Source: Fimbriimonadia bacterium
GTDB lineage: Bacteria; Armatimonadota; Fimbriimonadia; Fimbriimonadales; Fimbriimonadaceae
Assembly (NCBI GenBank): GCA_029824475.1
Contig: JALGYA010000013.1
Coordinates: 1-33,840 of the forward strand
Reading direction: 5' to 3'
DNA length: 33,840 nucleotides
Shown here: piece after piece, positions 244-1,355 of the stretch
Layout: each line of letters starts with the position of its first letter
How positions within the stretch are numbered: position 1 is the first letter of the stretch
Translations under genes and position numbers: made by a program
Notes under the pieces: model-generated
Told to the model about the DNA's origin: nothing
Database searches by the model: none
The model's input: only the letters and a program-made list of their open reading frames with translations

Positions 244-339
244 CACAGCTGTTGTTCGCTTTGCTCTCAACAACAGTGCCACACGGCTAAATTCTAATTC
301 GAGTGCCACTGTTGTTTGGGCTTGGACAAACAGCAGTGC
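244..339. repeat. REPIN-like 96-bp palindrome, copy 1
   Basis: Two hairpin-forming halves lie in inverted orientation. Half A (244-282) has TGTTG/CAACA arms around a 13-nt loop. Half B (303-339) has CACTGTTGTTTG / CAAACAGCAGTG arms around an 8-nt loop. The inner edges (GTGCCAC) and outer edges (cactgctg-like / cagcagtg) are also inverted, so the whole 96 bp is a palindrome of hairpins, the usual build of a REPIN/BIME. The first bases of half A deviate (cacag instead of cactg). Confidence 0.85.
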
Positions 340-429
340 TGTTGATCACCTTGCTCTCAGCAACGGGGCCACGCGGCTGATGTCGAGTTCGTGTGCCACT
401 GTTGTTTGGGCTCGGACAAACAGCAGTGC
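334..429. repeat. REPIN-like 96-bp palindrome, copy 2 (left half degenerate)
   Basis: The right half (393-429) is a near-identical copy of half B, with one change in the loop. The left half (334-376) has drifted: its right arm reads cagcaacgg in place of caacaacag. The unit shares its first 6 bp with the end of copy 1. It ends 25 bp before the RAYT start codon at 455. Confidence 0.75.
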
Positions 430-454
430 TGCCCGTATCAGTAGAATACTGTCA

Positions 455-943
455 ATGGGAGAGCGCAAGCTGCGACGAACCTACGATGAGCCTGGTCACG
501 CTCGTTTCTTGACATTCAGTTGTTTCCACCGGCGGCAGTACTTGGCAGCAGATCGATCAAAGGACGTGTTCTTGGAGCATCTGGACGCTTCCAGGGCTCG
601 ACTTGAATTCGAGATCTGGGCATTCGTCGTCATGCCGGAGCATGTTCACCTGCTGATCAATCCTTCCGATGCATCGGTCGCTCAGATCCTGCAGTCAATC
701 AAACAGCCATCTTCACGCAGGCTTCGTAAATTGATCGGGTGTGGAACACCCTTTTGGCAGGCTGGAGGAGGCTATGATCGGAATATCTGGTCTCAAAGAG
801 CCATAGAAGTGACGGTTGACTACATTCACGAGAATCCTGTGCGTCGCAAACTCTGCACGGCATCAATCGACTACCCGTGGTCTTCTGCAGCTGCGGACGA
901 GGGCTTTGACAGCAGAATCAATGTTGACTCGTGGAGAGCTTGA
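455..943 (+). CDS. REP-associated tyrosine transposase (RAYT, Y1_Tnp/IS200-like fold)
   Basis: This 162-residue protein belongs to the HUH single-strand nuclease family that includes IS200/IS605 TnpA and TnpA_REP. Family knowledge says such enzymes nick single-stranded REP hairpins through a catalytic tyrosine. Visible signatures are the N-terminal 'GHARFLTFSCFHRR' block, the HUH motif in 'MPEHVHLLI' (about residues 62-70), 'FWQAGGGYDRNI', and the C-terminal 'VDYIHENPVRRKL' block with the likely catalytic Tyr. The open frame runs upstream to 200 through the REPINs, but conserved sequence begins at ATG 455, so I start it there. REPINs lie on both sides (244-429 and 951-1355), as expected for a RAYT and its substrate repeats. 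By eye the region is more AT-rich than the flanking operons, which suggests transfer. No second transposase or integrase is present. Confidence 0.92.
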   Translation: MGERKLRRTYDEPGHARFLTFSCFHRRQYLAADRSKDVFLEHLDASRARLEFEIWAFVVMPEHVHLLINPSDASVAQILQSIKQPSSRRLRKLIGCGTPFWQAGGGYDRNIWSQRAIEVTVDYIHENPVRRKLCTASIDYPWSSAAADEGFDSRINVDSWRA

Positions 944-950
944 CCCACCC

Positions 951-1046
951 CACTGCTGTTGTTCGCTTCGCTCTCAACAACAGTGGCACGCGGTTGACCT
1001 CGAGTCCGTGTGCCACTGTTGTTTGGGCTTGGACAAACAGCCGTGC
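951..1046. repeat. REPIN-like 96-bp palindrome, copy 3
   Basis: Same architecture as copy 1. Half A is 951-989 (CACTGCTGTTG / CAACAACAGTG around a 13-nt loop) and half B is 1010-1046, with one change in its last arm (cagccgtgc). It starts 8 bp after the RAYT stop. It is the first of three units starting at 951, 1106 and 1260, so the right-hand array is a tandem repeat with a 154-155 bp period. Confidence 0.88.
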
Positions 1047-1105
1047 GGAAACAGCCGCCACACAATCTGAAGTCGAATTTCTTCGGCCTAGTCGTGAGTC
1101 GATCT

Positions 1106-1201
1106 CACTGCTGTTGGTCGCTTTGCTCTCAACAACAGTGGCACGCGGTTGATATCTAATTCGTGTGCCACTGTTGTTTGGGCTTGGACAAACAGCAGTG
1201 C
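1106..1201. repeat. REPIN-like 96-bp palindrome, copy 4
   Basis: This is the cleanest copy. Half A is 1106-1144 and half B is 1165-1201, and both keep their full arms. The roughly 60-bp spacer before it contains 'cttcggcc' and 'gtcgtgagtcgatct', which recur before copy 5. The spacer was therefore copied together with the palindrome. Confidence 0.88.
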
Positions 1202-1259
1202 AGAAAAGCCCGCGCGTGACCTGAAGCCGCATATCTTCGGCCTTGTCGTGAGTCGATCT

Positions 1260-1355
1260 CACTGCTGTTGGTCGCTTCGCTCTCAACAACAGTGGCACGC
1301 GGATAACCTCAAGCTCGTGTCACTGTTGTTCAGGCTTGGACAGACCGCAGTAATA
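1260..1355. repeat. REPIN-like 96-bp palindrome, copy 5 (right half degenerate)
   Basis: Half A (1260-1298) is intact. Half B (from about 1317) has several substitutions, including cagaccgcag for caaacagcag, and loses the terminal arm. Its right edge abuts the A-run (T-run on the minus strand) of the tRNA-Ala terminator at 1355-1360. The array thus ends exactly at the end of the tRNA transcription unit. Confidence 0.75.

Follow-up and report, generated by a model that had tools for sequence, protein, structure and literature searches.

A RAYT gene within an array of REP hairpins

The window, by which we mean the whole stretch of DNA analysed here, spans the entire 33,840-bp contig C250 of a 3.08-Mb assembly (G000; 344 contigs, 92% complete). 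The host is a member of the Fimbriimonas ginsengisoli family in the phylum Armatimonadota, and the original prediction was right in assigning the DNA to a non-proteobacterial genome. A gene for a RAYT (REP-associated tyrosine transposase, a Y1 HUH enzyme) of 162 aa is located at 455-943 on the plus strand, amid five palindromic units (244-339, 334-429, 951-1046, 1106-1201, and 1260-1355) that are 85-92% identical to the best copy (BLAST, E 1e-23 to 1e-34). The presence of five 96-bp palindromes is thereby confirmed, as is the claim that in each of them two different hairpin halves are inverted relative to one another. In every unit, two REP hairpins lie tail to tail: A occupies the minus strand, B the plus strand, and the 5' tags of the two face each other across ~20 nt. 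The units are not, however, exactly spaced as had been stated; start-to-start distances are 90, 617, 155, and 154 bp, and units 1 and 2 overlap by 6 bp.

At this locus, ten REPs alternate in a BIME-like array, in the order A-B-A-B-RAYT-A-B-A-B-A-B. Upstream of the gene, halves A1 (244-282, minus strand; tag GTGG at its right end; 39 bits against the covariance model) and B1 (303-339, plus; GTGC at its left end; 39.2 bits) are followed by A2 (334-372, minus; GTGG; 31 bits), in which the stem is decayed, and by B2 (393-429, plus; GTGC; 40.4 bits), which directly precedes the RAYT gene. Directly downstream of the gene lies A3 (951-989, minus; GTGC; 41.9 bits), and the array continues with B3 (1010-1046, plus; GTGC; 37.6 bits), A4 (1106-1144, minus; GTGC; 41.9 bits), B4 (1165-1201, plus; GTGC; 40.4 bits), A5 (1260-1298, minus; GTGC; 41.9 bits), and B5 (1317-1353, plus; GTGT; 29.3 bits). 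The fifth unit is degenerate, its right half reading GTGTCAC where the other units have GTGTGCCAC; the tag-stem junction of B5 is shortened. Positions 1050-1320 form a tandem ~155-bp BIME-like repeat (a 117-nt direct repeat family), including the ~58-nt inter-REP spacers at 1047-1105 and 1202-1259.

The simple alternation of A and B allows a second division of the array, equivalent to the 96-bp one, into outward-tagged units. In this alternative phase, with tags outside, the units are B1-A2 (303-372), B2-RAYT-A3 (393-989), B3-A4 (1010-1144), and B4-A5 (1165-1298), and the transposase gene is enclosed by an inverted REP pair, the arrangement known from described REPtrons. The resulting REP-RAYT-REP core of 597 bp, bounded by the outward-tagged B2 (plus) and A3 (minus), has a like arrangement around several RAYTs of relatives.

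The RAYT protein carries the HuH motif PEHVH (EHVH), a guide-contact region WQ-GGGYDRN, and the catalytic motif Y-IHENP (YIHENP). It scores 92.2 bits against NCBIfam model NF047646 (REP_Tyr_transpos), above the cut-off of 80, 46.3 bits against PF01797 (Y1_Tnp), and 34.1 against the IS200 model, below the cut-off of 55. A PF01797 search of the genome returns the gene at 455-943 as its only match, which bears out the description of a lone HUH transposase of RAYT type; HUH and Y---NP motifs together with low copy number (one PF01797 match) are features of class 2 RAYT/TnpAREP proteins. The only PDB match (phmmer) is E. coli TnpAREP (4er8), and alignment with this structure shows W94 and Q95 conserved in the guide-contact region, E100/H101 replaced by D/R, changes reported for subclasses 2.5 and 2.7 (PMC6006769), and R104 replaced by W. 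A tree built with named references places the protein among other Armatimonadota RAYTs, together with one Botrimarina (Planctomycetota) sequence, all of which share WQ-GGGYDRN. The protein lies outside the distinct clade of E. coli-type proteins (support 100/99) and is therefore not a member of subclass 2.2 (Bertels group 2). The suggested placement in a RAYT family tree thus yields these neighbours but no published subclass, 2.2 being the only RAYT subclass represented among the references. A tblastn search of plasmids with the RAYT gave no match, and a scan of genome contigs yielded Botrimarina and a UBP7 bin only.

On either side of the cassette lies one copy of a 60-bp direct repeat (3-62 and 1373-1432, 97% identical) that comprises the 3' half of tRNA-Ala(TGC) and its downstream flank, a layout such as integration at a tRNA 3' end would leave behind. 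The left copy runs into an apparent degenerate tRNA at the contig end. This repeat had been missed previously.

Locus hairpins and dispersed doublets in the same genome

Alignment of the ten halves and the solo copies gives a REP consensus with guide GTG[CG], stem CACTG[T]TGTTn - loop - n'AACA[G]CAGTG, and one conserved T.G mismatch. The 5' tag lies on the inner side of the hairpin within the 96-bp units and is GTGC in 8 of 13 copies in the genome, GTGG in 4, and GTGT in 1. Compared with the GT[AG]G foot of GTAG-type REPs, GTGG (4/13 here and 3/3 in the congener) fits, whereas GTGC does not strictly match that pattern; the GTGC/GTGG/GTGT foot appears to be a relative of the canonical guide. 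The assertion that no GTAG tetranucleotide precedes the hairpins is consequently wrong in substance, because a GTG[CG] foot (once GTGT) is present at every REP.

A search of the genome with a covariance model finds 13 copies (E 3e-8 to 1.2e-3), ten at the locus and three solo copies on contigs C113, C199, and C254; the next matches, at E of about 1 upwards, either fall inside the array or are the same hairpins read on the opposite strand. MAFFT misaligned the REP halves owing to their unequal loops, and hand-trimmed loops were therefore used for the model. One solo copy has a compensated change in the stem, from CTG/CAG to CGG/CCG. Across copies from this genome, the congener, and genus g9, four pairs are changed on both sides and the covariation score is 0.199 compared with 0.094 after shuffling (0/500), figures that lean towards structure given the hand-trimmed loops, artificial columns, and sequences chosen with structure in mind. 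The T.G mismatch is retained in 18 of 19 copies from the same three sources.

The whole 96-bp palindrome is not found elsewhere in the genome by BLAST, and outside the locus there is just one 79% half-match. BLAST with the whole palindrome alone would thus suggest a locus-specific repeat, and it took pattern searches and a covariance model of the hairpin to reveal that the REP hairpin recurs in the genome, in the congener, and in genus g9. The flanking REP of a REPtron is commonly dispersed in many copies, whereas this one has only three outside its locus, and it is dispersed as solo copies, not as the inverted doublets of REPINs; counts for this genome come from searches that may miss diverged copies. 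With regard to singlet and paired copies, then, the hairpin does occur elsewhere (three solo copies) but the 96-bp palindrome does not, and the palindromes at the locus are not equivalent to dispersed REPINs. The refuting case named beforehand, in which the palindromes occur nowhere else in the genome or in relatives, accordingly holds for the 96-bp units within this genome and fails for the hairpin.

Dispersed REPINs are nevertheless present in the form of REP3, a second tagged hairpin family (GTGTGCCAYGGACAGGC ... TTTGTCCGTGC) that came to light in the contexts of another hairpin, REP2 (described below). REP3 has 66 matches in the genome at ≤2 mismatches and 78 at ≤3, compared with 3 at ≤3 for the reversed control, and is nearly absent from congener G051 (5 matches at ≤3 mismatches; control, 2). 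Among 69 listed copies, 42 form 21 inverted pairs at 69-77 bp with tags outside, so that there are at least 21 doublets; these have the canonical REPIN layout of ~90 bp, with two different halves in each one inspected. Inverted doublets are hence the prevalent dispersed unit of REP3, as is characteristic of REPINs. Examples are C99:39043-39130, C111:8222-8310, and C145:7126-7214 (among loci L164-L193), and 21 of 25 sampled copies lie outside ORFs of ≥200 aa.

The REP3 stems are wholly different from those of the locus REPs. The tag CGTGTGCCA is common to REP3 and locus half B, however, and REP3 half B' also shares the 10-nt loop TTTGGGCTTG. Tag and loop together give 15 matches in the genome and none in the control or in three other genomes of the family. 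Chance alone produces a 10-nt match in about 14 of 20000 shuffles per comparison, and several comparisons were possible; once these are allowed for, the shared loop constitutes modest evidence. The proposal of a REPIN-RAYT system with its own palindrome family therefore stands insofar as a REP-RAYT system and dispersed REPINs both exist, but these REPINs belong to a different, related hairpin family.

RAYTs and hairpins in related genomes

RAYT homologues are found in 35 of 85 genomes of the family (E ≤ 1e-10) and in 37 of 291 genomes of the phylum (E ≤ 1e-15), mostly in the same family. In several relatives, GTG[CG]-tagged hairpins with outward tags lie on both sides of the RAYT, and their stems differ between genera. 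In two closed relative genomes, their own REP core, GGGTGCCCCGGTCTG, is dispersed in 15 and 10 exact copies. The usual number of RAYTs per genome is one or two, and G012 and G025 of the same family have 9 and 14 RAYT-like matches. Two RAYT matches of equal score and identity lie 1.8 kb apart in another genome (G027:C1:3302420-3302923 and 3304217-3304720), which suggests tandem duplication of a RAYT unit.

The locus REP type occurs in seven copies in G029 and one in G030, both of genus g9, and in three copies in G051, which is the single congener compared. Each locus-type REP in G051 is paired, tags inward, with a GTGG-tagged GTGGTGCGGACGT hairpin (REP2) at ~20-30 nt, a layout like that of the locus palindromes. 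No RAYT was detected in the 77%-complete assembly of this congener, though REPs are present. The two congeners have six solo copies between them, none at a shared site, and at two REP sites of our genome that have alignable flanks, the REP is absent from G051; intergenic DNA is too diverged between the congeners to distinguish insertion from deletion at the compared sites. The idea that the system is vertically maintained consequently finds no support in this comparison, which reveals no REP at an orthologous site in the congener and two alignable sites lacking one there.

REP2, the GTGG-tagged hairpin GTGGTGCGGACGTCCACGTCTGC (loci L134-L163), is abundant in G051 (about 31 sites) and rare in the genome studied here, where it is located at C171:5464, C99:6262, C99:6298, and C233:15536. 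At least one outward-tagged REP2 doublet is present in each of the two genomes. A further dispersed palindrome, CCTCCACCCCCTAACCCCCTCCTCC...GGAGGAGGGGG, often adjoins REP2 in both congeners (L107, L109, L113, and L115 in G000; L100, L112, and L114 in G051); it is terminator-like, with no tag recognised.

Nature of the system and alternative explanations

The RAYT is a domesticated, single-copy gene for a DNA-cutting enzyme, and the system is of a known type, REP/REPIN-RAYT (PMC2817692, PMC3116915, PMC3733652, PMC6006769, PMC8266576), here in Armatimonadota. As in the E. coli REPtron/BIME (TnpAREP, group 2 / subclass 2.2; PMC8266576, PMC6006769), a single RAYT lies amid inverted REP pairs, REPs of two loop types alternate, and the tagged hairpin has an irregular stem position. 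The guide differs, being GTG[CG] here and GTAG in E. coli, and the Armatimonadota RAYT falls outside the E. coli-type clade, with D/R at the positions of E100/H101 and R104 not conserved. The REPIN-RAYT system of Pseudomonas fluorescens SBW25 (PMC3116915) likewise combines one chromosomal RAYT with dispersed inverted doublets of ~90 bp that have their tags outside (REP3 in the present case). Here, however, the stems of the dispersed doublets are unlike those of the gene-flanking REPs, copies number in the tens rather than the hundreds, and the phylum is Armatimonadota. The GTAG super-family of REPs (PMC3733652) likewise has tandem clusters and both kinds of heterodimer, with the tags inside (TT) or outside (HH), but its tag differs from the GTGC/GTGG found here; this comparison was made with the super-family as such, not singly with its 24 listed families. 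TIRtrons/TIRYT (PMC3733652; mostly subclass 2.1) also have a RAYT-like gene, inverted repeats, and few genomic copies, but the repeats here are REP-type tagged hairpins, and at 162 aa the protein has no room for the long C-terminal domain found in subclass 2.1 (median 238 aa).

Taken together, the data make it very likely that the locus is a REPtron, that is, a single-copy RAYT in a BIME-like array of ten REPs, in which the RAYT would mobilise both the flanking REPs and REP3 through tag and loop. By analogy with characterised TnpAREP enzymes, the protein likely binds the tagged hairpin on single-stranded DNA, uses its HUH/tyrosine site to cut beside the hairpin, and mobilises or recombines REP doublets. 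We infer that the same RAYT acts on flanking REPs and REP3 doublets alike, recognition being by the tag CGTGTGCCA (and the loop TTTGGGCTTG for one REP3 half) and not by the stem. Mobilisation of REP3 by this enzyme is plausible from the sequences because it is the only Y1 transposase detected and because a tag and one loop are shared; this enzyme probably acts for REPINs whose stems have diverged from those of the gene-side copies. Points against this reading are that in the systems of Nunvar et al. the REP flanking the RAYT is the abundant one (PMC2817692), that the REP-bearing congener yielded no RAYT, and that GTGC departs from the GT[AG]G pattern. REPtrons have also been described in species without GTAG repeats, however, so that dispersal of the flanking REP is a common rather than a strict feature of REPtrons (PMC3733652).

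The main rival to mobilisation of REP3 by the RAYT at the locus is a second RAYT, now lost or unassembled, that spread REP3 while the present one serves only the ten flanking REPs and a few strays. The dispersed REPINs do differ completely in stem from the RAYT-flanking REPs, there is no REP3 on the RAYT contig among the matches listed, and a second gene could be missing from an assembly that is in 344 contigs and 92% complete; moreover, other family members have several RAYTs each, so that loss of one is plausible. We nevertheless consider this explanation rather doubtful, if a possible one, given that PF01797 finds one RAYT only in the genome and that the tag CGTGTGCCA and loop TTTGGGCTTG are common to both hairpin families. 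An origin of the cassette as the remnant of a genomic island at the 3' end of tRNA-Ala, with the RAYT and palindromes as decaying cargo, is less probable still, indeed unlikely. The 60-bp direct repeat is laid out as tRNA-targeted integration predicts, halves A2 and B5 are decayed, and no RAYT was found in the congener, but the ORF list and translations reveal no integrase in the 1.3-kb insert, the RAYT reading frame is intact, and the left side is the contig end, beyond which the boundary cannot be followed. Such an origin concerns the arrival of the locus and does not contradict its reading as a REPtron.

An ordinary insertion sequence of IS200/IS605 type, carrying subterminal hairpins, is a highly improbable reading of the locus, even though the enzyme is of the same HUH/Y1 superfamily, inverted hairpins lie on either side of the gene, and a direct repeat brackets the cassette. 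The transposase is single-copy, it passes the RAYT model and falls short of the IS200 cut-off, its YIHENP motif fits the class 2 Y---NP signature rather than the Y---Q of IS200, and tagged hairpins are present elsewhere without the gene; the motif, the single copy, and the IS200 score together led us to reject membership of this group. The notion that the palindromes are mere transcription terminators or structural repeats unlinked to the RAYT can draw on the presence of other dispersed terminator-like palindromes (CCTCCACCCCCTAACCCCCTCCTCC...) in the genome, yet it is hardly credible when 10 of 13 copies of the hairpin are at the RAYT, the RAYTs of relatives are flanked by different hairpins that are equally tagged, and the tag and conserved mismatch are kept while stems covary.

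Returning to the REPtron with its single RAYT, we tentatively suggest an extension that is possible but far from assured: one RAYT might serve several REP families with unrelated stems, recognised by guide and loop, and REPIN populations might be replaceable within the genus (REP3-rich G000, REP2-rich G051), leaving the RAYT-side copies as a separate lineage. No earlier description of REP-RAYT in Armatimonadota was found in the literature searched, and the locus places such systems in this phylum. The dominant REP families differ between congeners and closed relatives have their own, which provides a natural comparison of RAYT/hairpin co-evolution and makes the group suited to asking which part of the hairpin (tag, loop, or stem) is recognised outside Proteobacteria.
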